IMG/VR virus record: IMGVR_UViG_3300036832_000686
Location: 1 to 43,153 of that record
Length of the DNA stretch: 43,153 bases
DNA from: a virus
Strand: one strand, 5' to 3'
In this document: piece after piece, positions 13,883 to 41,828 of the stretch
How the letters are laid out: each line of letters opens with the position of its first letter
Position numbering within the stretch: position 1 is the first letter of the stretch
The notes under the pieces: generated by a model
What the model was told of the DNA's origin: nothing
The model's database searches: none
What the model saw: only the letters and a program-made list of their open reading frames with translations
Position numbers and translations under genes: made by a program

Positions 13883-14488
13883 TCATTCCGATTCTGCGGG
13901 TGGCGGCAAGGGAAGCTGGCCCTGGTCCTGGGAGATCTTGCGCGCGCCGTTGCGGCGGTAGGCCTTCACCACCACCATGCGATCGCCGTTGAACATGAAG
14001 CGGACATTGACGAAATACATATCCGCCGCCGGCGAGCGAAACAGGAATTCTTTCTCGAGGAGCTCGTTGAGGCCGCGGTAAAAGGTTGAGCGCGCGAGAT
14101 GGGGCAGGATCTTGGTGGCGATGTAGTGGTTGAGCGATATCGTATCGCGATCCTTGCCGCCCGCGCCGCTCATTTGGTTGAACACGAGCTCGAACACGGT
14201 CAGCCCGGCCTTGGTCAGCTGGCCGTGCTGCTTGACGCCGGCGAAGTAGATCTTGACGAATTGCTCGCTGTCGACCTCCTCCTCGGTGATGAAGCCGAAC
14301 GTCCCTTCGGCGAGAACCTCGCCCGTGTCGGGCGCGATCATCATTGCCTGCTTGCCGTTGGTCCTCGACGTCGCGCGCATCGCCACGGGGAAACGCCCGA
14401 CGATCGACGGGTTTTCGTCGTAGATCGGGAAACCGCGCCGCTTCGGCAAGTTGAACACCTCATCCGATTTTTGAATCTTTCGTCCCAT
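13883..14488 (-). CDS. repL: RepL-family plasmid replication initiator
   Basis: A 201-residue protein with features of the RepL group of winged-helix plasmid initiators: a helix near residues 93-110 (TKAGLTVFELVFNQMSG), a recognition-type block near 130-152 (STFYRGLNELLEKEFLFRS), and a beta-wing close after (ADMYFVNVRFMFNGDRMVV). The protein would bind the origin and start plasmid-style replication. Start ATG 14488 follows AGGG. An AT-rich stretch with repeated motifs and a DnaA-box-like site lies directly upstream. Its stop is only 3 bases from the converging lipoprotein gene, with no visible terminator between. RepL was named from Gram-positive plasmids, but related initiators occur more widely; a phage regulator with the same fold is the main alternative. 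Confidence 0.72.
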   Translation of the reverse strand: MGRKIQKSDEVFNLPKRRGFPIYDENPSIVGRFPVAMRATSRTNGKQAMMIAPDTGEVLAEGTFGFITEEEVDSEQFVKIYFAGVKQHGQLTKAGLTVFELVFNQMSGAGGKDRDTISLNHYIATKILPHLARSTFYRGLNELLEKEFLFRSPAADMYFVNVRFMFNGDRMVVVKAYRRNGARKISQDQGQLPLPPPAESE

Positions 14489-14505
14489 TTTCAGCCCTAA
14501 ATCCT

Positions 14506-14614
14506 GAAACTAGCGTGTCAACAGAGTGAAACTGCATTCCCAATTATGCAAGGATTTTTGGGAAACGAGTTTAAAAAGTTGGGACTCTCGTTTCAGATTC
14601 TGGGACTCGGTTTC
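14506..14614. repeat. Iteron-like GAAAC motifs in both orientations
   Basis: Three copies carry the pattern GAAAC-N5/6-TCCCA: 14528-14542 on the + strand (GAAACTGCATTCCCA), and on the - strand 14580-14594 (GAAACGAGAGTCCCA) and 14601-14614 (GAAACCGAGTCCCA). Shorter matches beginning GAAAC lie at 14506 and 14562. They cluster directly upstream of repL in AT-rich DNA, so they are candidate RepL binding sites for initiation or autoregulation. Confidence 0.5.
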
Positions 14615-14672
14615 GCAGTTTTCTGCGGGCTAGAGGGTGTTTCCCTTCTTAGTATAAAAAAGAGAGGGTTTT

Positions 14673-14742
14673 CCGAGGTTATCCACGCTTCGCCGGCGCG
14701 CCCCCTCCAAAGCTGGTGACGGCGGGGGGTGGGTAACCTCGG
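14673..14742. promoter_or_regulatory. DnaA-box-like site within a 9-bp inverted repeat
   Basis: TTATCCACG at 14679-14687 differs from the classical DnaA box TTATCCACA only in the last base. It overlaps the left arm of a perfect inverted repeat, CCGAGGTTA (14673-14681) and TAACCTCGG (14734-14742), with 52 bases between. Near the initiator gene this supports an origin where host DnaA participates. Confidence 0.45.
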
Positions 14743-14781
14743 ATGGCACCGAGTCTCGCAAGAACGCAGGCGCGAAGAGGA

Positions 14782-14876
14782 GCGCCGCTGGTCGCGGCGC
14801 GCGCAGGCCTGGCGGCCCTAGGAGGAACGCGCCTGGCGGCGCGTGCGCAGAATTGGTGAGGCGGCCTGGCGGCCGC
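14782..14876. repeat. Four consecutive short hairpins with TGG-type loops
   Basis: Four GC hairpins follow each other: GCGCCGC-tggtc-GCGGCGC (14782-14800), GGCC-tggc-GGCC (14806-14817), GCGCC-tggc-GGCGC (14829-14842) and GCGGCC-tggc-GGCCGC (14861-14876). Three share the identical loop TGGC although their stems differ. The role is unknown; possibilities include a protein or RNA recognition array, a single-strand priming site, or transcription attenuation. Confidence 0.45.
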
Positions 14877-15042
14877 AACGGGCTTGGCAATGGGAGAGTC
14901 GGGATGCGGCATCGCATCCAATGGGCCGAATTTTGCAGCGGGAAGCCCGTACAGCGCGAAAGGCGCCTCGAGCGCTACCCGTGTAACCCCGAGGCACTTA
15001 GACGCGCTTAGAAAGGCTCTGAGCGGTAATTTTGCAGAAAGG

Positions 15043-15291
15043 TCATGCCGGCGGTTTCCAGAACTTGCCGTGAAGGGCTGTGCCAGCCTTCGCGGGGGGA
15101 TAGCCTTCCTCGACCAGCCAGGCGGTCCAGGCATTGATCGGCGGCCGGTCGCCAGCAGCCTTGCGTGCGGCCAGATAGTCCAGCCCTTCGCGTTCCCATC
15201 CGTAGGGCGGGCGCGCATTGGCCCAATTGTCCTTGGGCATGAGCGCCGCGCTTAACAGATCTGCGATGATCTCGGCCGGATCTGTGCTCAT
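15043..15291 (-). CDS. Hypothetical protein, last gene of the partition-integrase operon
   Basis: An 82-residue protein starting at ATG 15291, overlapping the integrase stop by ATGA. Acidic start (STDPAEIIADLLSAAL), then an aromatic-rich part (RPPYGWEREGLDYL, INAWTAWLVEEGYPP). No recognised domain and no membrane segment. Coupling to the integrase suggests a role in recombination or lysogeny, but nothing in the sequence proves it. Confidence 0.6.
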   Translation of the reverse strand: MSTDPAEIIADLLSAALMPKDNWANARPPYGWEREGLDYLAARKAAGDRPPINAWTAWLVEEGYPPAKAGTALHGKFWKPPA

Positions 15292-16523
15292 GCCGCCGCC
15301 TCCAATCCAGCGGCGAGCGCGGCCGCGGTCATCGTCGCGTCGATCGGGCCATAGACCGAGAGCATCATGGCGATTGACTGTAAGCTATGGCCGGTGATCG
15401 TCGTAATCATGGCCGGGTGCATCCCGCCGCGGCGCAGGCGGACAACGCGCGTGCGGCGCAAGTCATGCCAGACGAGCTCGGTCATCTGCGGGCGGTCGGC
15501 GGCCTTGGCGGCGTGCGCGAGGATCTGCGACCAGGCCGCGGTGAAGCCGCGCTTGGTCCAGGACAGGCCCGTGCGATCGTCGACAATGACATGGGTTAGC
15601 AGCCGCGGCGGGCTCGCAGCGCGATCGCGCGCGCGGTTGGCGGCGATCGCGAGCTCGACCTTGCGGCGCAGCTGCGCAGCGAACGCGATTTCCAGCTGAA
15701 CGGCCGGCTTGCCCTTGGTTTTTTTGCTCTGCGTCACCGACCAGCCCATGACCTTGCCGGCCTCGTCGGCGAAGGCCGCGCGCACGCCGGGATCCGCAAT
15801 CCGAAACGCGCGCCAGTGCCCCTCGGTAAAGGCGATCAGATCCGAGCGGCGCTGCGCCGAATAGATCGCGAGCTCGCAGGCGAGCGCCATCGACGGGCGG
15901 CCCAGGTCATAGGCGGCGGCGATAAATGCGGCCTCGTCCTCGTGCTCCCAGACATGCGACCGCGGCGGCGGCGCCGGGAGTCCAAAGTCCACAGCCGGAT
16001 TCGGCTCGAGCTTGGCGAAAGCGAGCAGCTGGCGCAGCATCTTCAAGCAATTGAACGCGGCCGCATGGCCGATGCCGCCGGCCTCCTTGGGCGGCGCGAG
16101 CTTGTCGCGCAGCGCAAGGACGCGCGCCGGCGTGATCCACGAGAGCGGGCGCGCGCCGGCCCAGGCCTCGAGGCGCTTGAGGCTGGTTTCATAGGTTTCG
16201 ATCGTCTTGGGCTGCAAGGCCGGCTTGCCCGTGGCGACGCAGCGGCCGGCGAACACTTCGCGGCGATAGCGCGCGGCCAAGGCTGCGAGCGTGCCGGCCT
16301 CGAGGCGGCCGGCGACGCCTTCCGGCCCTGCCCCGCCCTGGCGCCAGGCCGCGATCGCGGCGTTGCGCGCCTCGGCCTTGACGATCGCCGCGCCCTTGTC
16401 CTTGCCGAGCGCGAGCGCTTCCCATCCGGCATCGAGCAGCGTCTTGCTCGGCCGCCAGTACCAGCTGGTTTCGCCGGCCTTGTTGGTGACGGGCCGCAGC
16501 CCGTTGATCTTGAATTGTGCCAT
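15288..16523 (-). CDS. int: Tyrosine recombinase (phage integrase)
   Basis: A 411-residue integrase. ATG 16523 (MAQFKINGLRP) is chosen over a longer open frame because it lies just after the upstream stop. N-terminal part: arm-type/core-binding region with helices at about 90-190 (TIETYETSLKRLEAWAGA). Catalytic domain: first Arg near 225 (YSAQRRSDLIAF), His353-Asp-Leu-Arg356 (HDLRR), His379 (TGHSLQS) and nucleophile Tyr391 (MLSVYGPID). These are the expected R-H-R-H-Y residues. It would integrate and excise the element at an attachment site or resolve multimers of a plasmid form. It lies in the same overlapped operon as ParA, which is unusual and leaves open whether its main job is integration or dimer resolution. 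Confidence 0.9.
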   Translation of the reverse strand: MAQFKINGLRPVTNKAGETSWYWRPSKTLLDAGWEALALGKDKGAAIVKAEARNAAIAAWRQGGAGPEGVAGRLEAGTLAALAARYRREVFAGRCVATGKPALQPKTIETYETSLKRLEAWAGARPLSWITPARVLALRDKLAPPKEAGGIGHAAAFNCLKMLRQLLAFAKLEPNPAVDFGLPAPPPRSHVWEHEDEAAFIAAAYDLGRPSMALACELAIYSAQRRSDLIAFTEGHWRAFRIADPGVRAAFADEAGKVMGWSVTQSKKTKGKPAVQLEIAFAAQLRRKVELAIAANRARDRAASPPRLLTHVIVDDRTGLSWTKRGFTAAWSQILAHAAKAADRPQMTELVWHDLRRTRVVRLRRGGMHPAMITTITGHSLQSIAMMLSVYGPIDATMTAAALAAGLEAAA

Positions 16524-16524
16524 A

Positions 16525-16821
16525 TTACCCCCAGGATGCGGGGCCGCGCTTGTGGCGGCCGTCGGCCTTTTTCTGGCCCGGATAGAGATTTTCGTGGAAC
16601 GCGGGATCAAGCTTGCGCTCGAGCTCGCGGCAGTCGGCGACGTGGCGCCGCAGCGCCTTTGCCATGTCGCCCAGGAAACCATCGTGCAGCGTCGTTTGCC
16701 CCGCGCAAAGGCGCACGACCGTCCGCTCGTTGACGGCGAGCTCGCGCGCGGCGACGCGCGTGCCGCCGATCGCGCGCACCGCCTCGCGGAATAGGTCCAG
16801 TTGGGTAGCGGGATCGGTCAC
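16525..16821 (-). CDS. Small helix-turn-helix protein
   Basis: A 98-residue protein with a helix-turn-helix at about residues 14-40 (VRAIGGTRVAARELAVNERTV), a lambda-repressor/XRE-like pattern. A basic C-terminus (GQKKADGRHKRG) may contact DNA. It ends one base before the integrase start and overlaps the preceding gene by ATGA. Possible roles are directionality factor for the integrase, or a regulator of this operon. No larger CI-like repressor was found in the window, so it is also a candidate lysogeny regulator. Confidence 0.65.
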   Translation of the reverse strand: MTDPATQLDLFREAVRAIGGTRVAARELAVNERTVVRLCAGQTTLHDGFLGDMAKALRRHVADCRELERKLDPAFHENLYPGQKKADGRHKRGPASWG

Positions 16822-17018: not shown

Positions 17019-17263
17019 TGCGGGCCTCCCGCACCAGGCGCGAGCCCGACGCGCGCGAGCTCGCCGGCATCGGGCGAAAAGTAGGCGCCGGCCCAATAGC
17101 TGAGAACGCAGTCCTCGCCGATCGTGATCGGGCCGAAGTCCTGGCCGAGGCAAGCGTCGTAGGCCTTGCCGTCGAGGATCTCGATCATGCACTCGCGGCC
17201 GTGGAGATCGGAGATAAAGCCGTCGTCGTTGTACCAAATGCCTTTGAGAATTTTTATCATCAT
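17015..17263 (-). CDS. Hypothetical small protein downstream of the RHH partition gene
   Basis: An 82-residue protein. ATG 17263 is used because it overlaps the upstream TGA (ATGA); a second ATG follows at once. Short strands and turns predominate (ILKGIWYNDDGFISDL, MIEILDGKAYDA), with an acidic character. No family recognised. It is embedded in the operon between the RHH protein and another orphan gene. Confidence 0.6.
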   Translation of the reverse strand: MMIKILKGIWYNDDGFISDLHGRECMIEILDGKAYDACLGQDFGPITIGEDCVLSYWAGAYFSPDAGELARVGLAPGAGGPQ

Positions 17264-17565
17264 GGGAGCTCCAACTTGCCGCCGAACTGCTTGAGCGCGC
17301 GGTAGTCCTCGACGAACTTGGTAAGGGCGGCGGCCAAAAGATCCTGCTGGCTGCGCCGCTCGGCCGTAGCGATCATGCGAAATTCGCGGGCGATCGGATC
17401 TTCGGGATCGAAATAGCCGCCGATGTGCAGACGGCCAGCATTGGAATTGCGCCGCTTCTGGCGTTCGAAATCGCCGCGCGCGACGGCCGCGGGCTCGAGC
17501 TCGGCGGCGCGTTCGTCGCCCGCCGGCGGAAACGCGCCGAGCAGCGAGGGATTTTTCTTTGGCAT
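17260..17565 (-). CDS. Ribbon-helix-helix protein, candidate ParG-type centromere-binding partner of ParA
   Basis: A 101-residue protein with a disordered, charged N-terminus (about 1-45) and a C-terminal ribbon-helix-helix: a strand near 46-50 (RLHIG), helix A (PIAREFRMIATAERRS) and helix B (QQDLLAAALTKFVEDY). This layout matches the small DNA-binding partners of type Ib ParA proteins (ParG/omega-like), which bind centromere repeats and repress their own operon. It follows parA by 11 bases, with GAAAGG as ribosome binding site. The pairing with ParA is from context and fold; no centromere site is proven, though repeats upstream of parA are a candidate. Confidence 0.68.
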   Translation of the reverse strand: MPKKNPSLLGAFPPAGDERAAELEPAAVARGDFERQKRRNSNAGRLHIGGYFDPEDPIAREFRMIATAERRSQQDLLAAALTKFVEDYRALKQFGGKLELP

Positions 17566-17576
17566 TTATAGACCTT

Positions 17577-18224
17577 TCAAAGTGGATGATTGGATAGATC
17601 AACAGTTTTACAATTATCAAACAAAAAGGCGAGCAGCGCGGCGATCTCGCCGGCGGCTTTCCCGCCGGGCTCGTATTCGCTGACGCTCGAGCCGCTCGGC
17701 CAGGCGTGGCGAAAGGCGCTGCGCTCGCGCACGACAACGGGCGCGCTGGCAAGCCCGGCCGCGCTGGCGAATTTTCCGGCATCGTCGAGCAGCCCGCGTG
17801 CCGCAACTGGCGCGCCGTTGAACACGACAAAGCCGGGCTTGGCAGTGATCGCGATCATCTGCGCGGTGCGCCGAATCGCCTCGAGGTCGATCAGGCTCGG
17901 CCGGCAAGGGATCAGCGCCAGATCGGACAAGCGTACCGCTTCGCCAGCCTCGGCACCGGCGGCCGGCGGCGTGTCGATGATCGCCAGGCCAAAGCCAGCG
18001 GCGCGCGCGGCGGTCAGCCAGGCCGGCAGGCGCCGGGTGCTGATCGGTTCCACATGCGGCGTATCGGCGGCGCGGCGCTCATGCCAGGCGGTTGCGCTTT
18101 CCTGGGGATCGAGATCGGCAAGCGCGGTGCGGATCCCGGCGGCCTCGGCCGCCACGGCAAGATTGACGGCGAGCGTCGTCTTGCCAACGCCGCCCTTTTG
18201 GGCGGCCAGAGTGATAACGTGCAT
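17577..18224 (-). CDS. parA: ParA-family partition ATPase
   Basis: A 215-residue deviant-Walker ATPase. Residues 9-17 are QKGGVGKTT (Walker A with the signature lysine), followed by ALADLDPQESATAW (A' motif) and AIIDTPP (Walker B region). It lacks an N-terminal HTH extension, the small type Ib form that usually works with an RHH partner, found directly downstream. It would position plasmid copies before division. Start ATG 18224 follows AAGGATGAAAG. A promoter-like sequence and inverted repeats lie in the 75 bases upstream. Finding a ParA in a T7-like virion genome is the strongest sign, with RepL, of an extrachromosomal prophage. Confidence 0.88.
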   Translation of the reverse strand: MHVITLAAQKGGVGKTTLAVNLAVAAEAAGIRTALADLDPQESATAWHERRAADTPHVEPISTRRLPAWLTAARAAGFGLAIIDTPPAAGAEAGEAVRLSDLALIPCRPSLIDLEAIRRTAQMIAITAKPGFVVFNGAPVAARGLLDDAGKFASAAGLASAPVVVRERSAFRHAWPSGSSVSEYEPGGKAAGEIAALLAFLFDNCKTVDLSNHPL

Positions 18225-18299: not shown

Positions 18300-18566
18300 T
18301 CACAACCAAACCTCGACCACGGCCGGATCGTCCTCGGGCATCCGATCGAGCCGATAGAGCCCCGCCGGCAGGCACGCGCGAATAGACTCGAGCTCGGGCG
18401 CCACGAGCAGCGCCTTGGTCGGCTTGCTATAGGTCGCGCCGATCTCCCACAGCCGGGCGACATAGCGCTCCGCATCGAACGGGCGCGGCTCGCGCGTGAC
18501 GACCCATAGGCGCAGGGGTTTGGTGCTCAACAGGCGGAGCCAGTCGCGCTCCTCGGCCTCGGTCAT
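18300..18566 (-). CDS. Hypothetical protein
   Basis: An 88-residue protein, ATG 18566 overlapping the previous stop (ATGA). The sequence is mixed alpha/beta (LRLWVVTREPRPFDAERYV, then PEDDPAVVEVWL). No domain recognised. It is the last gene of the leftward group starting at 19867, before the separate parA promoter. Confidence 0.58.
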   Translation of the reverse strand: MTEAEERDWLRLLSTKPLRLWVVTREPRPFDAERYVARLWEIGATYSKPTKALLVAPELESIRACLPAGLYRLDRMPEDDPAVVEVWL

Positions 18567-18823
18567 TGCGGCGCGTCGCTCGGCGCATCCTCGAGCACGG
18601 CGCGGCCTTCGAAGCGCGCGAGGATCTCGTGCAGCATCGAGACGATATCCTTGCGCGCGCCGTTCGACAGGTAGTTGACACGGCCGCCGGCGATCTCCCC
18701 GAAATTGGCGATCAGCAGCGTGAAACACACGGTCTTGGCGGCCGGATCGGGATTGAATACCTCGTCGAGCGCGCGCGCGACGTGGTTCATCATGTCCTTT
18801 TGGTCTTCCTCGATCTCAGCCAT
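18563..18823 (-). CDS. Hypothetical acidic helical protein
   Basis: An 86-residue protein starting at ATG 18823. The N-terminal half is helical and acidic (AEIEEDQKDMMNHVARALDE); the middle is hydrophobic (TVCFTLLIANFGEIAGG) and the end again helical (DIVSMLHEILARFEGRA). No family recognised. It overlaps the next gene by four bases. Confidence 0.6.
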   Translation of the reverse strand: MAEIEEDQKDMMNHVARALDEVFNPDPAAKTVCFTLLIANFGEIAGGRVNYLSNGARKDIVSMLHEILARFEGRAVLEDAPSDAPQ

Positions 18824-20144: not shown

Positions 20145-20375
20145 TTGTGCGCGCCCATGACTCCAGCGGCGATTGACCATCCGCTGCGCGCGTGGCGGAA
20201 AAAGCAAGGGCTGACGATGGACGTTTGCGCCGAGCGCTGCGGCACGTCGCGGCAAGTCTGGAGCGATTGGGAGCGCGGCCGCAGCCGGCCGGGCAAACGC
20301 CTGATGCCGCGCGTGCGCGGCTTCACGGGCGGGGAGATTTCCGCCGACGATTTTTTTCCGTTCGGCGACGACTGA
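20145..20375 (+). CDS. Cro/CI-like helix-turn-helix regulator
   Basis: A 72-76 residue DNA-binding protein. TTG 20145 is preceded by GCGGGA; ATG 20157 is the alternative and has no visible ribosome binding site. The XRE-type HTH covers about residues 10-40 of the shorter form (LRAWRKKQGLTMDVCAERC, then GTSRQVWSDWERGRSRPG), with no oligomerisation or protease domain, so it resembles Cro more than CI. It opens the rightward replication operon and faces the leftward lysogeny block, the classical place for a switch regulator. The three TGTCAG/CTGACA sites upstream are its likely targets (inference). Confidence 0.75.
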   Translation: MCAPMTPAAIDHPLRAWRKKQGLTMDVCAERCGTSRQVWSDWERGRSRPGKRLMPRVRGFTGGEISADDFFPFGDD

Positions 20376-20411: not shown

Positions 20412-20633
20412 TTGCCGCCTGACTTCGACCAGCGACCCGGCGAGCTCGAGGCGACGCGCGCGATCTCCACGGATCTGCCCGCGGTCATGCTGACGCGCGA
20501 TCATGCGCGCGAGGCCTGGCTGGCGATGCTGCTTTGCGAGTCGGCCGAAGTGCTCTTGACCGTCACGCAAATGCGGATGCTCGCGGCCAATCTGCTCGAG
20601 GCCGCGCGCTGGATCGAGGAGCGCTGGACGTGA
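20412..20633 (+). CDS. Hypothetical small protein in the replication operon
   Basis: A 73-residue protein beginning at TTG 20412 directly after a strong ribosome binding site (AAGGGGGAGA). The sequence is mostly helical (TRDHAREAWLAMLLCESAEV, then LAANLLEAARWIEERW). No domain recognised. It overlaps the primase start by four bases (GTGA), so it is probably co-translated with it. Confidence 0.6.
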   Translation: MPPDFDQRPGELEATRAISTDLPAVMLTRDHAREAWLAMLLCESAEVLLTVTQMRMLAANLLEAARWIEERWT

Positions 20634-21736
20634 TCTCGGTCGGCGAGATCGAGGCGCGGCTCCGCGAGCGCGCCGAGGATCTCGTCACCAAATTGCTGCC
20701 CGCTGCGCGGCGCGAAGGCGCCTACTACAAAATCGGCTCGGTCGAAGGCGAGGACGGCGCGAGCCTGGTTATCCACCTGGCCGGCGCCAAGCGCGGGCGC
20801 TGGCAGGATTTCGCGGGCACCGATCACGGCGACATGCTCGATCTGATCCAGGCAAGCCGGCACCTGGCGGGCAAGGCCGAGGCCGTGGCCTGGGCGAAGT
20901 CGTGGCTCGGCATCGCCGATTCGTGGCGGCGCGACAAGGAACCGAGCGCCGACGATCGCCGCAAGGCGGCCGAGGCGACGCGCAAGCGCACGGCCGAGCG
21001 GATCCGGCGCGAGGCCGCCGAGCGTGCGGGCAAGATCCGCGGCGCCAAGGGGCTCTATCTGAACCGCGAAACCGTGCCGATCGCCGGCACGCCGGCCGAG
21101 GCCTACTTGCGCCGCCGGCTGCTCGAGCCGGCCGAGGTGCGCGAGCACGAGGGCGCGACCTGGCCCGGCGTGCTGCGCTTCCATCCGGCCGCCTGGCACG
21201 GCGGCGAGAAGCGCAAGCTCCCGGCGATGCTGGCGGCCGCCTACTTGCCCGATGGCTCGCAAGTCGCGACGCACCGCACGTTTTTGCAATGCTGCCCGCG
21301 GCGCGGTTGGGTCAAGCTCGACAGCGACCAGGCCCGGCTCGTGCTCGGGCCGATCGGCGGCGCGTTCATCCCGATCTGCAAGGGCGCGAGCGGCAAGAGC
21401 ATGCGGCATATGCCCGATGGCGAAGCCGTCTATGTCAGCGAGGGGATCGAGGACGCGCTCGTCGTCAGGATGAAAAAACCCGACGCGCGCATCATCTGCG
21501 CCACTTCGCTGCCGAACCTCGCCGCGATCGTGCTGCCGCCGGCGGCCAGGCGCCTCGTGATCGTCTGCGACCGCGACGAGAACGAGAAGGCGCAATTGGC
21601 GCTCGAGCGCGCGATCGCCTGCCACCAGGCGCGCGGCCTGCATGTGCAGATCTGCATCCCGCCGCCCGGCATCAAGGATTACAACGATTGGCTGATTGCC
21701 GAGGCCGCGCAGGGCTTGCGGAGCTCGGCACCATGA
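20630..21736 (+). CDS. Toprim-domain DNA primase
   Basis: A 368-residue protein from GTG 20630, overlapping the preceding stop. The N-terminal part (residues 25-75, with GRWQDFAGTDHGDMLDLI) is the catalytic-core entry seen in phage/plasmid primases, but no CHC2 zinc cluster is visible. The C-terminal Toprim domain has the conserved Glu in VSEGIEDAL (about 269) and the DxD-type pair in VCDRDEN (about 311-316), which bind metal. The end (GIKDYNDWLI) matches phage Toprim proteins. It makes primers for element replication, working with the helicase encoded next (ATGA overlap). Confidence 0.83.
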   Translation: MISVGEIEARLRERAEDLVTKLLPAARREGAYYKIGSVEGEDGASLVIHLAGAKRGRWQDFAGTDHGDMLDLIQASRHLAGKAEAVAWAKSWLGIADSWRRDKEPSADDRRKAAEATRKRTAERIRREAAERAGKIRGAKGLYLNRETVPIAGTPAEAYLRRRLLEPAEVREHEGATWPGVLRFHPAAWHGGEKRKLPAMLAAAYLPDGSQVATHRTFLQCCPRRGWVKLDSDQARLVLGPIGGAFIPICKGASGKSMRHMPDGEAVYVSEGIEDALVVRMKKPDARIICATSLPNLAAIVLPPAARRLVIVCDRDENEKAQLALERAIACHQARGLHVQICIPPPGIKDYNDWLIAEAAQGLRSSAP

Positions 21737-23706
21737 CAGAACCTGTCACCCCCGGCCCCGATGGGATGGGTGGCAGCTTGGAGGCGCCGCACGAGGCGCC
21801 GCAATTTTCGAGCGAAGGCGAGGGCGGATCGCAGCGCAAGCGCCGCGAGTATCCGCCATTCCCGCCCGGTTGCCCGGTCAAGCCTTTGGGGCTCACGGCC
21901 AATATCGAGGGCTCGCAGCGCTGCTATTACCTCGACGCGACGGGACAGCTGGTCGGCCTCGAGGCGGGCAACCGCCACGGCAAGAACGCGCTCGCCGCCA
22001 TGTTCGGCGAGCAAATGGGCTGGCTCGAGGACTCCTTTCCGCAATGGTCGAAGCCGATTTACGAAGGCCGCGGCGCCTCGCGCGTGATGGTCAAGGACTC
22101 CGAGATTATCGGCTTCGACCAGGCCGACGCCAGCGAGGCGATGATTATCGAGTGCACGCGCAAGGGCATGTTCGATCCGGCCGGGCGCCTGCGCGGCAGG
22201 GGGGCCCATCCGTTGCCGCACGACGGGATCGTGATTCACCACGGCGACCAATTGCTGCACGCGCGCCAGCGCGTTGACGGCGCGGTCAGAGGGTGGGAAT
22301 GGCTCGATTGCGGCTTGTATGAGGGCCACGTCTATCCGGCCTCCGAGCCGACGCCGCGGCCCTGGGGCGAGCCGAGCAATGCGCGCCCGGCCGAAAAGCT
22401 CCTCGAGCTCCTGTTTACCTGGCGGTGGAAACGCCCGCTGCTCGACGCGCGGTTTATGCTCGGGTGGATCGGCGCGGCGATGATCGGCGGGGCGCTGCGC
22501 TGGCGGCCCAATATCTGGCTCACGGGATCCGCGGGCACCGGCAAGTCGACCTTGAACGGCGAGCGCGGCGTGCTCGATCTCCTGTTCGGCGCCGGCCTCT
22601 TGCGCACGGGCAACGCGAGCGCCGCGGCGATCCGGCAAAAGCTCAAGAATTCGACGGTGCCCGTATTGTTCGACGAGATCGAGGCGAGCGCCGACAATCG
22701 CCGCGTGCAAGAGGTCGTCGAGCTCGCGCGCGTGTCGAGCTCGGGCGCGACGATCCACCGCGGCGGCGCCGACCACCAGGCCCACGAATTCACGCTGCGC
22801 AGCTGCTTTCAATTTTCGTCGGTCAATATCCCGCCCTTGCAGCCGCAGGACCGCTCGCGCCTCGGGATCCTCGAGCTCGAGCCCTTCGCCAAGGGTGCGG
22901 CGGCGCCCGTGCTCGAGGATTGGAACCTGCCAGAGATCGGCCGCAAATTGCAGCGCCGGATGCTCGATGGGTGGAGCCGCTTTCCGGCGACGCTCGCCGC
23001 ATTTCAGGCCGCGCTCTCGGGTGCCGGGCATAGCCGGCGCGCCTGCGACCAGTTCGGCGTGCTGCTCGCCTGCGCGGATCTGCTCTTGAACGAGCACCAG
23101 GCCGACGACGAGGAAATTGCCGAATGGGCGGGGCTTTGTGCGCCCGATCGCATGGCCGAGATCAGCGAGGCAACGCCCGATCACGAAGCCTGCATGAACC
23201 ACCTTTTGACGCACATGGTTCAGGCGCGCGGCGGCGACGAGCGCGAGGCGCTCGCCTCTTGGATCGGCCGCGCCGTGCAGCTGGCCGCGACCGAAACGCT
23301 CGTCGGCGACGAGGATCTTGCGCTCGAGCGCGCGCATGGGCGCCTCGCGCAACTCGGGATCCGCCTGGTGAACGCCTCGAGGCGCGCCGCGAGCGATCGT
23401 GAAGGGCTTTGGGGCGCGGTCGCGTTCCGGCCGGCCGATCCTGGGTTCCTCGCCGTCGCGGCGAACCACCAGGCGCTCGGCTCGATCTATGGCGGCACCA
23501 CCTGGCAGGGCGGCGTGTGGCGGCAATCGCTCGCGCGCACGCCGGGCGCGCTCGGCCATGTCCGGTTGAAATTCGGGCGGGTGAGCCTGCGCGCCGTGCT
23601 CGTGCCGCTCGCGGCCGTGCTCGACGACAGCGAGCTCCCCGACGCGAGCAAGCCCGAGGCCGCGGCCGCCTGGCTGGCCGAACAAATGAAAGAGGCCGAG
23701 GCATGA
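21733..23706 (+). CDS. P-loop replicative helicase, phage/plasmid type
   Basis: A 657-residue protein from ATG 21733 (ATGA overlap with the primase). After a charged, disordered start, residues about 240-400 hold the ATPase: Walker A GSAGTGKST (about 264-272) and the acidic Walker B VLFDEIEAS (about 312), followed by a sensor-type region (FTLRSCFQFSSVNIP). This fits helicases often paired with Toprim primases on phages and plasmids. The C-terminal 250 residues are helical without a recognised domain. No DNA polymerase is encoded nearby, so host replicase is presumably recruited. Confidence 0.75.
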   Translation: MTEPVTPGPDGMGGSLEAPHEAPQFSSEGEGGSQRKRREYPPFPPGCPVKPLGLTANIEGSQRCYYLDATGQLVGLEAGNRHGKNALAAMFGEQMGWLEDSFPQWSKPIYEGRGASRVMVKDSEIIGFDQADASEAMIIECTRKGMFDPAGRLRGRGAHPLPHDGIVIHHGDQLLHARQRVDGAVRGWEWLDCGLYEGHVYPASEPTPRPWGEPSNARPAEKLLELLFTWRWKRPLLDARFMLGWIGAAMIGGALRWRPNIWLTGSAGTGKSTLNGERGVLDLLFGAGLLRTGNASAAAIRQKLKNSTVPVLFDEIEASADNRRVQEVVELARVSSSGATIHRGGADHQAHEFTLRSCFQFSSVNIPPLQPQDRSRLGILELEPFAKGAAAPVLEDWNLPEIGRKLQRRMLDGWSRFPATLAAFQAALSGAGHSRRACDQFGVLLACADLLLNEHQADDEEIAEWAGLCAPDRMAEISEATPDHEACMNHLLTHMVQARGGDEREALASWIGRAVQLAATETLVGDEDLALERAHGRLAQLGIRLVNASRRAASDREGLWGAVAFRPADPGFLAVAANHQALGSIYGGTTWQGGVWRQSLARTPGALGHVRLKFGRVSLRAVLVPLAAVLDDSELPDASKPEAAAAWLAEQMKEAEA

Positions 23707-23744
23707 AAACCCCGGCCCCGATCGGCGCAAAAGTGATTTGGCGG

Positions 23745-25319: not shown

Positions 25320-25835
25320 TCAAAAGAGGGTCGGTTGCGTGCGCGTGCCGAAGCCGCCGAGCTCGAGGCCGGCTTGCGCGGGCGCCGATCGCAGCGCCGG
25401 CCGGCCGGCGGCGGCCGCCTCGCGCGCGAGCCAAGCCTTTTGTTCGCCGATGCCGAGGCCTTCCATCGGCGCGCGCCAGCAGTAGGCGCGGGCGCTCGGC
25501 TGCGCGGCGATCGGCTCGCGGTACGTCTTGCCGGCGAGCAGGACGACAGGCGCGCCGTCGTCGACGAGCTCCCACAGCCCTTGCATGACGCGATCGCCCC
25601 AGGCGAGGCGCTCCCAATCGTGCGCCATGCCGCCGAGCGTGACGTCGTAGGGTGCGACGACCTCGGCCGGGTGCAGCAGGCCATGCTTGGCCGAGAGGAT
25701 GCGCCAGGGCGCGCCGATCGCCTCGACATAGGCCGCGGCCTTGCGGAACCAATCGGACGTGTAGAGCGCCGCGGCGGGCGCCGGGCGGTCGAGCTTGCCG
25801 GCGACGCAGGCGACGAGGTGAAGCGGTGTAGTCAT
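25320..25835 (-). CDS. DUF6884-like protein
   Basis: A 171-residue protein from ATG 25835. It shows the pattern of DUF6884 phage proteins: an N-terminal strand with Cys (LHLVACVAGKLDRP), ALYTSDWFRKAAAYVE, then WRILSAKHGLLHPAEVVAPYD. The biochemical role is not established to my knowledge; the ILSAKxGLL core recurs in many phages and mobile elements. The C-terminal part (WLAREAAAAGRPALRS) is probably a flexible addition. Assignment is from motif memory. Confidence 0.6.
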   Translation of the reverse strand: MTTPLHLVACVAGKLDRPAPAAALYTSDWFRKAAAYVEAIGAPWRILSAKHGLLHPAEVVAPYDVTLGGMAHDWERLAWGDRVMQGLWELVDDGAPVVLLAGKTYREPIAAQPSARAYCWRAPMEGLGIGEQKAWLAREAAAAGRPALRSAPAQAGLELGGFGTRTQPTLF

Positions 25836-26810: not shown

Positions 26811-27046
26811 TGCGGCGTTGCCCTTTCTGGCGAGGCGGTCGGTCTGTTCCGGCGGCCTGATCTGTCCTCTAGAGAGGGCATGTCGGAGCGGTCAATTCAG
26901 CCAAGCCAGAAACACGCCAAGCCGTGCATATTTCGCGTTGAGTTGAATTCCTCGGCCGCCGCGATCGCGCGCCGGCCCGCCGCCGATCGGCCGCAATGCC
27001 GCGGAATCGCTCGGCTTTTCGTTGCCCCGGCCCGTTGGCCGCCGGG
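26811..27046. other. Short gene-free leader beside the dyad
   Basis: 236 bases between the first leftward gene and the dyad. No convincing gene. It includes the A/T-richer stretch CTGTCCTCTAGAGAGGGC near 26866-26883, with the palindrome CCTCTAGAGAGG (one mismatch), and is the expected place for the leftward promoter, which I could not define. Confidence 0.35.
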
Positions 27047-27341
27047 GAAACTGTACGGGTGCTCAGGGCGGTTCCTGGCAGGAACCAGGCAGGAACCAGG
27101 CAGGAACCACCAAGCCGTTGAAAAGGCGTGTCTTTTCGGGCGGTTCCTGCGGTTCCTGCCTGGAGCCTCGCGCATGATGTGCGCAGAGGCGCGCGCAGGC
27201 GTCGCGCATCATGCGCGAGGGGTTTTGGCAGGAACCGCAGGAACCAGTCAATTCTTCTATATAGATCAGAGGGTTAGTGGTTCCTGCCTGGTTCCTGCCT
27301 GGTTCCTGCCAGGAACCAGCCCTGAACGCGCGTACAGTTTC
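27047..27341. repeat. 295-bp nested coaxial dyad of 12 GGTTCCTGC/GCAGGAACC repeats
   Basis: All arms share one axis near 27193-27194. Outer arms 27047-27110 and 27277-27341 are inverted copies of about 64 bases, starting GAAACTGTACG and containing the 17-mer GGTTCCTGGCAGGAACC plus two more 9-mers at 11-base spacing. Inner arms: tandem 9-mers at 27142-27160 and 27227-27245, then a perfect 14-base pair CCTCGCGCATGATG (27166-27179) / CATCATGCGCGAGG (27207-27220). The centre is GCGCGCGC. The two 31-base spacers differ in sequence; the right one (27246-27276) is AT-rich with TATATAGAT. Candidate lytic origin, centromere or telomere-like site; function unknown. Confidence 0.85.
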
Positions 27342-27993
27342 GCGTTTTCTGGCGGGCGCCTGGTCGCCGGCCTCGTCGAGCTCGCCGCGATCGGGGCGCC
27401 TAGCACCGTTCAGGACGGGGCGCCGGCGCAAACCTTTGGCGTTGCCGCCGCGCCTGGCGGCGCCGCCGGCGCCGGATCCGGCGTCGACCAGGCCGCCGGC
27501 GGGCCGATCAGGATCGAGGCCGGCCGGATCCCGGCGGATGGCGGAAAAGCGCCGGTTTCGGGCGCCAGATCGGCCGATGTGGCAAGGGCCCGGTGGCAAG
27601 GGTGCGCGCAACGCGCTGATTTCAGAGGCCGATCTCGATCGGCGCCCCTGCCTGACAGGCTGGCGCGCGGCGCCTGGCCGGCGTCGATCGCCGGGCCGGC
27701 GGCCGGCGGCCGAAGGCCGATCGCGCGCGCGACCCCCCGGTGCCCCCCGTGGCGGCGGCGCGCCGCCCTAGCATGTCGAGGCTCGCTGCTCGCCAGATTT
27801 GGATCGGCTTCGCCTTCGCTTTGCGGGGATCTGCGCCGAGCTCGCCTCGAGGCGCAAAGTTTGGTTGCGGCGGAACCGGGTCGGGGCTGGGGGATCCCCA
27901 TCACCCAAGTTGGGATCGCAGGGCAGGGCTGGGGTGTGGGAGCGGCGACCGCGATTCCGCCGCGGATTTCTGACATTACGAGGAGCGCGCAGC
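27342..27993. other. Gene-free region upstream of terS
   Basis: About 650 GC-rich bases without a convincing gene: frames here lack ribosome binding sites and have shadow-like Arg/Ala/Pro composition. Short palindromes occur close to the terminase gene: GGGGATCCCC (27890-27899) and CCCAAGTTGGG (27904-27914). Packaging sites usually lie near terS, so a cos or pac site is possible. No promoter could be assigned. Confidence 0.4.
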
Positions 27994-28569
27994 GTGTCAA
28001 CCGAGACGGGTGATATCCAGATCGCGAAAGGCGCGGTCGACCAGGCCAAGGCGCTGCTCGAGGAGGCCGCGGCCGAGGAGCAACAACTCGAGCTCTTGGC
28101 CCAGGTCGAGCCTCTGAGCGCCGACGAGATCGAGGACGCGCGCGCGACGCTCGGCGCCGGCGCCGGGCTCGTCACGGTGCTGCGCGAGGCGAGGAAAGCG
28201 CGCACGGGGCGCCCGCCCGGCGTGCGCAACAAGCGCACCGAGGATTTTGCGCGGTACATCGCGCAGTTCGGCCGCGATCCCGCGATTACGATGATGGAGA
28301 TCCAGTCGACGTCGACCGAGGAGCTCGTCGCGCGCTCGCGCCTCGTCGATCCGCCCAAGCGGCAGATGAGCTACGCCGATGCCGCGAGCCTGCGGATCCG
28401 CTGCGCCGAGGGCTTGATGCCGTACATTCACAGCAAGCGGCCGATTGCCGTCGATACGACGGTGCGCGGGATCATGGTCGTCGAGGAGATCAGCCAGCGG
28501 CCCGGCGGCTTCACGCTCGAGCACGACGGCGATCCGCTCGGGGTGCTCTCCGAGGATGACGTGCCATGA
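27994..28569 (+). CDS. terS: Terminase small subunit-like protein
   Basis: A 191-residue protein from GTG 27994, eight bases after AGGAG; longer upstream frames were rejected because their translation is shadow-like. N-terminal acidic coiled helix (AKALLEEAAAEEQQLELL), then the motif TGRPPGVRNKRTEDFARYI typical of small terminase or phage DNA-binding proteins, and a second helical part (MSYADAASLRIRCAEGLMPY). It would recognise the packaging site and deliver DNA to the large subunit encoded at 29539. Four small genes intervene. Assignment rests on the motif and position. Confidence 0.65.
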   Translation: MSTETGDIQIAKGAVDQAKALLEEAAAEEQQLELLAQVEPLSADEIEDARATLGAGAGLVTVLREARKARTGRPPGVRNKRTEDFARYIAQFGRDPAITMMEIQSTSTEELVARSRLVDPPKRQMSYADAASLRIRCAEGLMPYIHSKRPIAVDTTVRGIMVVEEISQRPGGFTLEHDGDPLGVLSEDDVP

Positions 28570-29282: not shown

Positions 29283-29542
29283 CCACCAGAACCGAAATTT
29301 CTAAATGGTTCGACGAGGGTGTCCAGATGGGCAAGGGCTACATGCTCATCCTGTGCGATACCTACGACTGGAGTGATTACCCCGATTATTATGCTCACCG
29401 GGTTGATGCCGAGCGAAAGGCCAAGTTTCCCGGCGAGATGCAGAAGGTGATGGAGGTCTATGACCTTAATGCTGACAAAGATCAGCAACTCAATCAGCGC
29501 CGCGCCAACTGCTTCAAAGCAGCCCTAGCAGATCAGCCATGA
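29279..29542 (+). CDS. Hypothetical small acidic protein
   Basis: An 87-residue protein from ATG 29279 (ATGA overlap). Aromatic- and Asp-rich centre (YMLILCDTYDWSDYPDYYAH) followed by a lysine-rich helix (ERKAKFPGEMQKVMEVYD). GC at third positions is noticeably lower than in neighbours, which hints at a different origin. No family recognised; it overlaps the terminase start. Confidence 0.6.
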   Translation: MTTRTEISKWFDEGVQMGKGYMLILCDTYDWSDYPDYYAHRVDAERKAKFPGEMQKVMEVYDLNADKDQQLNQRRANCFKAALADQP

Positions 29543-31086
29543 TCCCGGCGCCGCCCGACATGATCGTGCGCACGCTCAACTCGCCGGGGCCGGTGGCGGA
29601 CGCTTTTCTCGAGAGCCGCGCGTTCGTGCCGATCATCATCGGCCCGGTGGGCAGCGCCAAGACCGTGACAGCGCTGCGCAAGCTGCGCCGCATCGGCATG
29701 ATGCAGGGCGGGCGGCGCGACGAGCACGGGGTTTTGTGGCGGCGCGCGCGCGTGGGCGTGATCCGCGAAAGCTACCCGAATCTCGAAAAAAACACGCTGC
29801 CAAGCTGGTTTCGGATCCATCCGCAATCGGACGGCAAGTTTTTGTGGAAAGCGCCCTACACGCACCGGCTGTTGTTGATCCTCAAGACCGATGCCGACAA
29901 GCGCCCGATCGACGTCTGCGATCTCGAAATGGAATTCCGCGCGATCGGCGATCGCACCGTCGAGGAGGCCTGCCGCGGATGGGAGGTTAACGCGGTGATG
30001 ATCGACGAGGCCGATTTGCAGCCGGCCGATCTCATCGCATTTCTCTCGGGCCGCGTCGGCCGGTTCTCCGAGCTCGACCCGTCGACCGTGGTTGACCCGA
30101 CGATTATCCTCGCGCTGAACGCGCCCTATATTGATAACTGGTGCTATAGCCTCGCCTACGAGCAAGAATTCGCCGATCTGCTCGACCCGGCCTTGGTCGA
30201 AGCCTTGGGCGGGCGCCCGCTTGTCGAAGTCTTCATCCAGCCAGGCGGGCGAACCGCGCGCGCCGAGAACTTGCACAATCTGCCCAAGGGCTATTACCCG
30301 GTGCAAGCGGGCCTCAACAAACACCGTCCCGACTACGTTGCGCGGATGATCGACAACAAGCCCGTTCCCCTGCAACATGGGCAACCCGTCAATCCGCAAT
30401 TTGATTTCGAGGCGCACGTCGGCCCGGTCGAATGGGATCGCCGGCGGATGCTGATCGTCGGATTCGATCAAGGCTTGTTCGCCAGCGCCGTGGCTTGCCA
30501 GCGCACCGAGCAGGGACACTTGCGCACGCTGCGCGAGGCCGTCGCGTTCGTCAAAGCCGGCGAAGTCCTGCGCAAGATCGGCGCGACCGCGTTCGGCGAG
30601 CTCGTGCGCGCGATGCTCAACGAGACATTTTTCGACATTGCCCCCGACCGGATCCGCTTTGTCGGCGATCCCGCGGCCTGGCGCGCGAAAGACAACGAGG
30701 ACGAGGAGCGCGACTGGATCCGGCTGTTCGAAAAGGCGCTCGGCGCGCGCGCGCACCGCGCCAAGACCAACCGGCAAACCTTGCGCCACGAGGCCGTGTG
30801 GAAAGCGATGAGCGCGGTTGGCGGCTATCAGGTCGATCCCGCGTGCAAGCACCTGATTAGGGGGCACCTCGGTGGCTACCGCTATGCGACGGCCGACATG
30901 CGCGACGGCGAGACGCGCGGGCATTTGGAAGTCGCGAATACGATCTACACGCACGTCGCCGATGCCGAGCAATATGCGGCCGTCGAAGGTGAGCATGTGA
31001 TCTCTGATCTGCGCGGCCAGGCGCGGCGCCCCGCCCAGGTCGTCAACGATGCAGATTTCGACGTTTTCGCAGGAGGATTCGGCTGA
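29539..31086 (+). CDS. terL: Terminase large subunit
   Basis: A 515-residue packaging motor. Walker A GPVGSAKT at residues about 35-42, Walker B VNAVMIDEAD near 150-157 with the catalytic Glu, then the nuclease domain beginning with the metal-binding Asp in VGFDQG (about 307) and further acidic residues near 376-382 (FVGDPAAWRAKDNEDEE). It cuts concatemers and pumps DNA into the prohead. Start ATG 29539 overlaps the previous stop. Unlike T7, where terL lies after the fibre and lysis genes, here it precedes the portal. Confidence 0.9.
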   Translation: MIPAPPDMIVRTLNSPGPVADAFLESRAFVPIIIGPVGSAKTVTALRKLRRIGMMQGGRRDEHGVLWRRARVGVIRESYPNLEKNTLPSWFRIHPQSDGKFLWKAPYTHRLLLILKTDADKRPIDVCDLEMEFRAIGDRTVEEACRGWEVNAVMIDEADLQPADLIAFLSGRVGRFSELDPSTVVDPTIILALNAPYIDNWCYSLAYEQEFADLLDPALVEALGGRPLVEVFIQPGGRTARAENLHNLPKGYYPVQAGLNKHRPDYVARMIDNKPVPLQHGQPVNPQFDFEAHVGPVEWDRRRMLIVGFDQGLFASAVACQRTEQGHLRTLREAVAFVKAGEVLRKIGATAFGELVRAMLNETFFDIAPDRIRFVGDPAAWRAKDNEDEERDWIRLFEKALGARAHRAKTNRQTLRHEAVWKAMSAVGGYQVDPACKHLIRGHLGGYRYATADMRDGETRGHLEVANTIYTHVADAEQYAAVEGEHVISDLRGQARRPAQVVNDADFDVFAGGFG

Positions 31087-38996: not shown

Positions 38997-41278
38997 CGCC
39001 GCGGGGCACCTCTCCCGGCATCCGCCATCTGTTGTCGGGATTCCTTGCCGGCGAGCTCGATCCGATGATGGGCGGGCGCGTCGATACCGACCAGTATCAA
39101 TATGGCCTCGACACTTGCGAGAATTTCCTCGCGCTCGAGCTCGGCCCCTTGGTCAAAAGGATGGGGTTTCAATATATCCGCGACGCCGATCCGGCCTCGT
39201 CCTGGCTGACCGCGTTCCGCTTCTCGGTCACGCAGGAATATGTCCTCGAGTGGACCGATGGGCGCATGCGGTTTTTCACCAATGGCGGCCGCGTCGAAAC
39301 TTCGCCCGGCGTGCCCTACGAGCTCGGCACGCCCTACACCGCGGCCGAGGCGCCGAGCGTCTCGACGCAGCAAAGCTACGACCGGCTCTACATGGATCAT
39401 CCCGCGCATGCGCCGGGCTCGATCGCGCGCACCTCCGCGACGACGTTCACCTATCAGGCGACAAGCCTCGAAAACGGGCCGTTCAAGGATGAGAATATCA
39501 ACAAGAGCGTGACGGTCACGGTCGATTACGTCATCACCGATGGCACGACGCCGACGACGATCCACGCGAGCGCGCCGATCTTTCAGCCGGGCCACGTCGG
39601 CACCCTGTTCCGCATTCAGGCCAACGATTTTTCCACGCTGCAAGCCTGGGAGCCCGGCCGCACTGGCATCACTACGGGCATGGGGCTGCGGAACGAAGGC
39701 AAGGAATACGTCGCGCAGACCGCGGGCACGACGGGCACGATGGCGCCCGTGCACACCGAAGGCTCGGCATGGGACGGCGCGCACCTCAACGATCTCGCTT
39801 CGGCGAAGGGGCCTTATGGCGTCGAATGGAAGTATTTTTCCGATCAGTTCGGCATTGCCAAGATTACGTCGGTCGCCGGCGATGGCCTCTCGGCCAGCGC
39901 GGTGGTGCTGCGCCAGATGCCCGATGCCACCGAGGGGCCGAGCTGGCGCTGGTCCTTTAGCCTGTTCTCGGCCGTCGAAGGCTGGCCGTCGCTCGTGCTG
40001 CTCTGGCAGGGCCGGCTTGTTCACATCAAGGGATTCGATATCGTCGCCTCGGTCGCCGGCGATTTTGGCGGCGGCCGCGCCAATTTCCAGACCTATACCT
40101 CCGAGGGAATTCTCGCGGCCGACATGGCGTTTCGCCGCACGCTCGCGACCGACGATCCGCCAATCTGGGCCGTCGCCGATCTCAAAAAATTGCTCTTGGG
40201 CACCGCCAGCAAAGAGCTCGCCGTAGGCCCGACCAATAGCCAGGCGATCGTCGCCGGCGACAATATCTCGATGGAGCCGCAATCGTTCTACGGCTCGCAG
40301 CCGATCCCGCCGCTGCAAGTCGGGACCAAGACGATTTTCGTCGAGCGCGGCGGGCGGCGCCTCCGCGCAGCGAGCTACGACATGACGCCCGACCGCTACG
40401 GCGCCGATGATCTCACCGTATCGGCGCGCCAGGTCACGGCCGGCGGGATCCGGCAAATCGCCTATCAGCGCTGGCCCTTCGCCTTCCTCCATGCCGTGCG
40501 CTCGGATGGGCAGATCGCCGTGCACTCCGATACCAAATTGCAGGTCAAGGGCTTCTCGCGGATCAAGCTCGGCGGCGGCGCGCAGGCGCTTTCGGCCGTG
40601 TCGGTCGTCGGCGCCGATGGCGTCACCGATGAATTGTGGCTGCTCGTCTCGCGCGCGACGCCGGGCGGCACGCGGCGCGAGATCTGGAAGCAAGCGCCGT
40701 GGCGCGAGCTCGGCGACGCGCCGCAAAATGCCTTTTATGTCGACGGCGGCGTCAACACGATCGCCGCGGCCGGGCAAACCCATTTTTCAGGGCTCACGCA
40801 TCTTGCCAGTCAGCCCGTCGCCGTGCTCGCCGATGGCGCCGTGGTGCCGAATTTGACCGTTGCCAGCGACGGCACGCTCGATCTGCCGAGCTCGGCCGTG
40901 CCGCCCTACGCCTATGTCATCGCGATCGGGCTCGCCTACAGCGCTACCGCGATCACCTTGCCGCCCGAAGTCGCGGCGGCGCGCGGCACGCTGCAAGGCC
41001 TGTGGAAGCGCGTGCGCAAAACCATGCTGCGGCTGCTCGAAAGCTCGGGGATCTCGGTGGGCGGCAATGGCGCCAACGATCCGCTCGAGGAGGTGCTCGA
41101 CCGCTCGGCCCAAGATTTCATGGATCATCCGATTCCGCTGTTCACCGGCGACATGGAAGGCAACGTCGACACGGCTTACGACCGCTATGGCCGCTGCCGC
41201 TTCGTCTCCAACCAGCCCTTGCCCGCGACGATCACCGCGGCCGCGCTCAGCTTCGAAATGGATCAGGACGGTGCGTGA
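38978..41278 (+). CDS. Tail tubular protein B / nozzle (T7 gp12-like), complete copy
   Basis: A 766-residue protein, near the 794 of T7 gp12. GTG 38978 is used; GTG 38987 or 38990 would shorten the overlap with the previous gene. Family pattern at the N-terminus: HLLSGFLAGELDPMMGGRVD then YQYGLDTCENFLALELGPLV, then a long beta-rich body with repeated propeller-like segments. The C-terminus matches the gene end at 1-154. It forms the tail nozzle that binds tailspikes and gates DNA exit. Confidence 0.88.
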   Translation: MGRVVVTPRGTSPGIRHLLSGFLAGELDPMMGGRVDTDQYQYGLDTCENFLALELGPLVKRMGFQYIRDADPASSWLTAFRFSVTQEYVLEWTDGRMRFFTNGGRVETSPGVPYELGTPYTAAEAPSVSTQQSYDRLYMDHPAHAPGSIARTSATTFTYQATSLENGPFKDENINKSVTVTVDYVITDGTTPTTIHASAPIFQPGHVGTLFRIQANDFSTLQAWEPGRTGITTGMGLRNEGKEYVAQTAGTTGTMAPVHTEGSAWDGAHLNDLASAKGPYGVEWKYFSDQFGIAKITSVAGDGLSASAVVLRQMPDATEGPSWRWSFSLFSAVEGWPSLVLLWQGRLVHIKGFDIVASVAGDFGGGRANFQTYTSEGILAADMAFRRTLATDDPPIWAVADLKKLLLGTASKELAVGPTNSQAIVAGDNISMEPQSFYGSQPIPPLQVGTKTIFVERGGRRLRAASYDMTPDRYGADDLTVSARQVTAGGIRQIAYQRWPFAFLHAVRSDGQIAVHSDTKLQVKGFSRIKLGGGAQALSAVSVVGADGVTDELWLLVSRATPGGTRREIWKQAPWRELGDAPQNAFYVDGGVNTIAAAGQTHFSGLTHLASQPVAVLADGAVVPNLTVASDGTLDLPSSAVPPYAYVIAIGLAYSATAITLPPEVAAARGTLQGLWKRVRKTMLRLLESSGISVGGNGANDPLEEVLDRSAQDFMDHPIPLFTGDMEGNVDTAYDRYGRCRFVSNQPLPATITAAALSFEMDQDGA

Positions 41279-41828
41279 ACTGACCTTCTCGCGCCTCGAG
41301 GCGGCCGACATGCTCGCCTTGCAAGCGGGGCGCAAAAACCGTGTCGTGTTCGGCATGCCCGTGGTTGCGACGCGCGAGGAGGCCCAAGCGATCGCGAGCG
41401 AGCGCGTCGCCTGGGCCGCGCGCGTTGTCGGTCCTGGGGGCGCCAAGCTGATCGGCTGCTTTGGCATCGTCGAGCACTTTGCCGGCGTGCACGGGCTCGC
41501 ATGGGCGATGCTCGCCGATCGCCTGGGGCCTGCGCACTTGCCGCTGACGCGCTTCGTTGCCAGCGCCATCGCGGCTTGCGGCCTGCCGCGCCTCGAGCTC
41601 CTCGCGCGCGGCCCCGACCTCGAGGCCGTGCTCGCGAAGTGGCCGGCGCTCGATCCCGGCCAGATCGTCGCGCTCGCCGAGGCGCGGCCAACCCCGGAAA
41701 TGCGGTGGGCCAGGCTGCTCGGGATGGTCCCTGCGCATGTGCTGCGCTTCTACGGCGGCGCCGCCGAGACGTTTATCTTGTTCGAACGGCGCGATCGCGG
41801 CGCGCTCCAACACAGGGAGGCGGCCTGA
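41271..41828 (+). CDS. Internal virion protein, T7 gp13-like (copy 2)
   Basis: A 185-residue protein starting at GTG 41271 inside the end of the nozzle gene, in the same arrangement and length as copy 1 at 147-704. Differences are scattered substitutions plus compensating small indels: three residues gained near AARVVGPGGAKL and three lost near WPALDPGQ. The DUF2833-like region is kept, so both copies look intact. It is coupled to the gp14-like gene by TGATG. Confidence 0.72.
   Translation: MRELTFSRLEAADMLALQAGRKNRVVFGMPVVATREEAQAIASERVAWAARVVGPGGAKLIGCFGIVEHFAGVHGLAWAMLADRLGPAHLPLTRFVASAIAACGLPRLELLARGPDLEAVLAKWPALDPGQIVALAEARPTPEMRWARLLGMVPAHVLRFYGGAAETFILFERRDRGALQHREAA

Follow-up and report, generated by a model that had tools for sequence, protein, structure and literature searches.

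What is the function of twelve short repeats that are arranged in two mirrored arms in an apparently noncoding part of a phage genome? The window analyzed here (43,153 bases) covers an IMG/VR virus record in full, and its structural genes constitute a BPP-1/BcepC6B-like podovirus set with a full head-tail complement. The repeats are located in ~1.1 kb of apparently noncoding DNA, with a leftward gene group on one side and terS on the other (Table 1). The helicase gene is 3.3 kb away, with opposite-strand genes intervening, and the start of the primase gene that precedes it is probably the GTG at 20630. Two minus-strand open reading frames, 21679-23730 and 20501-21643, were considered as conserved proteins and rejected as antisense shadows of the helicase and primase genes. 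The leftward gene group beside the array includes a DUF6884 protein (PF21818, E 6e-43; 25320-25835, minus strand). Positions 18563-18823 (minus strand) encode an 86-aa phrog_35296 protein, which weakly matches a family of late transcriptional activators (E 0.04). At the record end, 41211-43131 is an 80%-identical, 1.9 kb copy of 87-2007 at its start; this duplicate probably represents the same genes from a second strain, joined on at the end, and it fits a circular or circularly permuted map.

The array was first described in an earlier note made from the sequence alone, and the coaxial dyad of 12 repeats reported there is real. Exact copies of the half-site GCAGGAACC occur 10 times in the entire window, every one of them inside the array; two one-mismatch copies at the array edges, which read CCAGGAACC, bring the total to 12, in two mirrored arms with the axis at 27193.5. 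In 300 dinucleotide shuffles of the 25-30 kb region, a balanced count of one 6-mer in 260 bp never exceeded 8, versus the 12 observed. Inverted pairs I1, I4, I5 and I10 have a common axis at 27193-27194, and half-sites follow each other every 11 bp in the outer arms and every 9 bp in the inner pairs, as had been claimed. Half-sites 27070 and 27078 together form the palindrome GGTTCCTGGCAGGAACC, and the palindromes at the array edges are 16-17 bp long. The two spacers are indeed equal in length, but each counts 33 bp and not 31 bases. The AT-rich TATATAGAT, described for one spacer, is in the right one, and the array centre is GC-rich. An alternating GCGCGCGC is present there, at 27189-27196 within the core; however, the innermost 19 bp (27184-27202) are not a palindrome, and the outermost 23-bp pair, which the earlier note had included in the dyad, has no recognizable counterpart in relatives. 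Thus, the conserved element is 27070-27317, and the outermost pair probably lies outside it. Two conserved noncoding stretches, CCCCGGCCCGTTGGC to the left of the array (about 27026-27040) and CTAGCACCGTTNNGGACGG to the right (27399-27443), were also detected in several relatives.

Table 1. Positions of the array components and of the genes discussed in the text (window coordinates)
Feature	Position	Strand	Remarks
Tyrosine recombinase (integrase)	15288..16682	-	matches integrases
ParA partition ATPase	17577..18224	-	
Cro/CI-like HTH_3 regulator	20145..20375	+	upstream of primase
DNA primase	20534..21736	+	DUF7146 + Toprim_3
SF3/D5-like helicase, 657 aa	21733..23706	+	Walker A GSAGTGKST; phrog_35358 DNA primase 1.4e-49
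Candidate sigma-70-like leftward promoter	26866..26895	-	TTGACC-18-TAGAGG, read from sequence
Outermost 23-bp inverted pair (I4)	27047-27069/27319-27341	+ (left arm), - (right arm)	87%
Inverted pair I1	27070-27121/27266-27317		92%
Inverted pair I5	27142-27160/27227-27245		100%
Inverted pair I10	27166-27183/27203-27220		94%
Left outer iteron group	27070..27108		half-sites 27070 -, 27078 +, 27089 +, 27100 +; 11-bp pitch; also in relatives
Left spacer, 33 bp	27109..27141		CA.TGAAA stretch partly conserved; consensus CAAnnCATTGAAAT
Left inner iteron pair	27142..27159	-	9-bp pitch
Core, imperfect inverted repeat	27160..27227		CCTCGCGC...GCGCGAGG, flanks alternating purine-pyrimidine DNA
Right inner iteron pair	27228..27245	+	9-bp pitch
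Right spacer, 33 bp	27246..27278		AT-rich TATATAGAT (27258-27266), then GGGTTAGTGG; candidate unwinding region
Right outer iteron group	27279..27317		half-sites 27279 -, 27290 -, 27301 -, 27309 +; terminal palindrome GGTTCCTGCCAGGAACC
Terminase small subunit (candidate)	27994..28569	+	next gene past array; from position and conservation
Terminase large subunit	29539..31086	+	29% identical to BcepC6B TerL

Looking for the array in close relatives was a check that had been set beforehand, and the array is present there. Among the TerL neighbors (L003, L004/G002, L014, L015, L016/G007 and L019/G009, of which the last is a prophage whose genes lie within a 1.5-Mb contig of an uncultured Erythrobacter), the array, or the part of it reached by the contig, was detected in L003, G002, L014, L015, G007 and G009. 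The repeated word varies: it is GGTTCCCATG in L003, GGTTCCAG in G002, GGTTCCCG in G007, TGTTTCC in L014, GGTACCA in L015 and GGTTCCG in G009. The gut phage MT835534 (W01) has the word GGTTCTG, and its array is located immediately after the helicase gene. Because the word changes between relatives, an exact scan of viral contigs for the literal GGTTCCTGC word gave no match; region 26900-27500 had no DNA similarity match in phages or plasmids. The L003 contig starts inside the right half of its array, just before the right outer iteron group (L003 1-50), probably because the assembly broke at the repeats. The two ends of G002 are identical over 127 bp, and G002 is therefore a circular assembly running through the array. 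BcepC6B and MT835618 were uninformative as terminase controls because in both records the terminase genes lie at or near the beginning. Cores of the relatives contain sequence resembling CCTCGCG/CGCGTATAYGCG. An HTH_3 regulator, primase, helicase, recombinase, terminase and structural genes are common to all five genomes compared.

A helicase profile search gave 24 viral loci, and in 21 of them (20 by scan and L058 by eye) the array was located 0.1-4 kb downstream of the helicase gene. The array-negative loci were L047, which has little sequence past the gene, and L065 and L068, whose helicases are 32-33% identical and in which an array is at most doubtful. The main-group half-site pattern, <0 >10 >21 >32 <72 <80 >160 >168 <208 <219 <230 >240, recurred near-exactly, with a 4+2 / 2+4 layout whose offsets are held to about 1-2 bp despite words as unlike as GGAACC, AGAACC, GCAACC, GAAACA and GTACCA. 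Across replicons, GTTACC, TAATG, TTAGC, ACAACC and GTCACC also occur as the word. In one subgroup (L056, L058, L060-L062 and W01) the left arm is somewhat rearranged. The primase and helicase genes precede the array, adjoining it in W01 and several plasmids and several genes away in the window.

Two-armed arrays were also found near helicases of only 24-36% identity, in the unclassified phage MT835930 and in Arsenophonus plasmids. In paPv15, paPv13, pArsFIN16, paNv_CH14 and paNv_CAN17 the array is directly downstream of the helicase gene, and the words differ. The Arsenophonus plasmids are 7.9-11.6 kb long with 5-9 annotated genes, and the helicase is their sole annotated replication-type gene. 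Looser arrays were detected in Atlantibacter, Phaeobacter and Leisingera plasmids and in Acinetobacter phage Acjo_20, and none was found near the distant helicase homologs of PY223 and Azospirillum TSH58. One set of Arsenophonus nasoniae plasmids (L072, L078, L079, L080 and L082) has helicase, HTH and Rpn nuclease genes in common and a conserved block past the array; these small replicons form a family within a single host species, and their origin words differ.

As modelled by AlphaFold (pLDDT 82.7), the helicase had fold matches to the SaPI5 primase-helicase (7ola), PriRep1 with dsDNA (7pds) and SaPIBov1 Rep (8tch), and further matches to D5/E5, AsfvPrimPol and NrS-1. Foldseek E-values were 4.5e-6 to 7ola and 4.1e-5 to 8tch, with low TM-scores and a different domain arrangement; searching PDB sequences with the first helicase profile gave no meaningful match. 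The C-terminal domain (about residues 484-657), modelled alone, had a pLDDT of 91.5 and no PDB fold match, and DNA binding by this domain is therefore proposed by analogy. On a helicase tree built without this domain, the AGAACC word had at least two independent origins. Columns 193 and 620 alone have one residue in all AGAACC rows that is found in no GGAACC or GCAACC row, and residue 620 (R to T) is placed by the model on a C-terminal beta-hairpin (607-614/617-625). A primase control (10 of 325 columns) is not comparable because all of its AGAACC rows belong to a single clade. Covariation of the helicase, including residue 620, with the word is suggestive and, with just two independent switches, cannot reach significance.

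Taken as a whole, it is very probable that the array at 27070-27317 is the replication origin of the phage's own primase-helicase module, read by the helicase, presumably through its C-terminal domain; the helicase would assemble on it, probably as a double hexamer. Of the three functions put forward in the earlier note (origin, centromere and telomere-like site), only the origin is well supported, because the array tracks the helicase across replicons, including plasmids without another annotated replication-type gene. Recognition by the helicase is the best inference because the window group has the gene order of phage-inducible chromosomal islands (PICIs), pri-rep-ori(-terS). In the mechanism that we propose, iterons of 6-8 bp would be read by the C-terminal domain, and the six iterons of each mirrored arm would set monomers at a fixed helical phase; the number of half-sites per arm suggests one hexamer per arm. 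Two hexamers would form face to face, one on either side of the core; the rings would melt an AT-rich spacer and then travel outward, and priming would be provided by the product of the neighboring primase gene. If initiator and iteron drift together, as we propose, each replicon would come to have its own word on a kept scaffold. GC skew gives this reading no support: no minimum was observed at the array in any genome examined, and the cumulative maximum of the window is near 29.75 kb.

It is also conceivable, though unlikely, that the repeats are an operator array on which the Cro/CI-like HTH_3 protein switches divergent early and late transcripts. In each of the five genomes compared, an HTH_3 gene precedes the primase, and array-bearing plasmids have annotated HTH regulators; the array itself occupies a divergent intergenic region, and its edge palindromes resemble dimer operators. 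However, the recognition helices of the HTH proteins are wholly different in G007 (LIPVSIARYESG) and the window (TSRQVWSDWERG) despite GGAACC-type words in both, and the leftward promoter-like site, whose G002 counterpart is TTGACA-18-TAAAGG, is outside the array and ~170 bp away. Twelve half-sites with fixed two-armed spacing are also far beyond the needs of an operator. An operator role added to origin function is possible.

A packaging (pac/cos) site bound by the terminase small subunit is considerably less probable, although in the closest phages terS is located about 0.5-0.7 kb downstream of the array. Several array-bearing Arsenophonus plasmids have no annotated terS, and a dyad supplies no packaging direction. 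In addition, no alignment column separated AGAACC from GGAACC/GCAACC rows in TerS (0 of 111 columns) or TerL (485 columns).

Some centromeres typically have 11-bp iterons, and the window and G002 both have ParA with a neighboring RHH protein (in the window 17260-17565, PF20605, likely the ParA partner). Yet it is very improbable that the array is the centromere of this partition system, as array-bearing G007 and W01 have no ParA, the ParA matches of G009 are far from the prophage, and parA is 9 kb from the array in the window. The array is likewise not linked to the gene at 13883-14488, which the earlier note had called RepL and for which Pfam, PHROGs and NCBIfam gave no family match; this RepL-like gene and ParA are absent from G007, W01 and the G009 prophage region. 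Together with its upstream region (13883-14961), the RepL-like gene has 87% DNA identity to G002 and is one of the best-conserved parts of the genome, and the upstream region contains GTTTCA/TGGGACT motifs and a DnaA-box-like TTATCCACG at 14679-14687. Judging from this gene and TTATCCACG, a second origin near 14.5 kb is possible, perhaps for use in a plasmid state of the window and G002. ParA/RHH occur only in these two of the genomes compared, which suggests that some members of the group are phage-plasmids and others integrate.

A hairpin telomere cut by a protelomerase would account for a long coaxial dyad with an alternating CG centre, and related Arsenophonus plasmids do carry protelomerases. 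This reading is nevertheless extremely improbable: the innermost part of the array is not palindromic, G002 closes as a circle through it, and the window recombinase matches integrases, with no protelomerase gene. Moreover, the linear plasmids paNv_CH14, paPv13 and pArsFIN16 have a separate annotated protelomerase gene, and their array is internal, at a distance of about 2.7-3.2 kb from an end. Arm sites of lambda attP are set close together across about 240 bp, and the recombinase is conserved, but an attachment site with integrase arm-type sites is just as improbable, since attP would be split in a prophage and the G009 array is whole, ~11 kb from the integrase gene (a tRNA search for an att site in G009 found none).

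Returning to the helicase-read origin, a stricter form of it would assign one iteron to each monomer, with DNA itself prescribing a head-to-head double hexamer; the geometry would be selected, and the word would drift freely with a small specificity patch of the helicase that includes residue 620. We regard this form as tentative and rather doubtful. If true, it would define a widespread class of phage and plasmid origins in which a protein-DNA code can be read and determines replicon compatibility. Plasmids paPv13 (TTAGC) and paPv15 (GTTACC) reside in one Arsenophonus strain, and their different words are what is expected if the word sets compatibility. The function proposed for the array is an ordinary one in an unusually regular and widespread form, apparently undescribed in the literature found in a non-exhaustive search. 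It provides a likely origin for a large, little-studied group of temperate phages and for small plasmids whose origins are also undescribed in that literature. The natural series of initiator and word pairs may help decode origin recognition by hexameric helicases, and a geometry-based search can detect such origins where sequence similarity fails.

Among known systems, the protelomerase targets N15 telRL and PY54 have a long dyad and CG alternation; the array differs in having neither a protelomerase gene nor a palindromic centre, and its relatives are circular. The SF3 helicases SV40 T antigen and papillomavirus E1 gather on short inverted repeats next to DNA that melts readily; they differ in having an N-terminal origin-binding domain and far fewer sites, with no homology at the site. 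Origin recognition by both is specific (PMC7581432). In SCCmec, repeats past the gene for the D5-type helicase Cch2 are bound by the C-terminal domain of Cch2 in isolation (PMC7581432), but that site has three 5-bp iterons and no nested dyad. The plasmids of Arsenophonus nasoniae (paPv15, paPv13, pArsFIN16 and paNv_CAN17) have a two-armed array of ~6+6 half-sites past a homologous helicase; unlike the window, their outer groups consist of four direct repeats at 12 bp without an edge palindrome, their cores are AT-rich (with CTCGYGTATATA as the core counterpart), and some are linear with a protelomerase.

The nearest likeness is to the PICI/SaPI origins. With its C-terminal domain, SaPI Rep recognizes an iteron origin directly downstream of its own gene, apparently as two hexamers (PMC7581432). 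PICIs have the order pri-rep-ori, sometimes with terS next, and every origin has two iteron sets (PMC6092414); several iteron words are known (PMC6092414, PMC7581432). The array system shares with SaPIbov1, SaPI5 and EcCICFT073 the primase and self-loading helicase genes, an origin with two iteron sets and sometimes terS, and the helicase fold matches SaPI5 and SaPIBov1 Rep. However, the replicons here are full phages and plasmids and not satellites lacking most structural genes, the half-sites form a strict dyad (4+2 / 2+4, with pitches of 11-12 and 8-9 bp), and the primase is of the Toprim and not the AEP type. Further differences are that the alphaproteobacterial forms have a GC-rich alternating core where PICIs have an AT-rich middle, that the C-terminal domain has no PDB fold match, and that the origin may sit several genes downstream. 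Overall, the array system is best read as a variant of the PICI/SaPI-type helicase origin.
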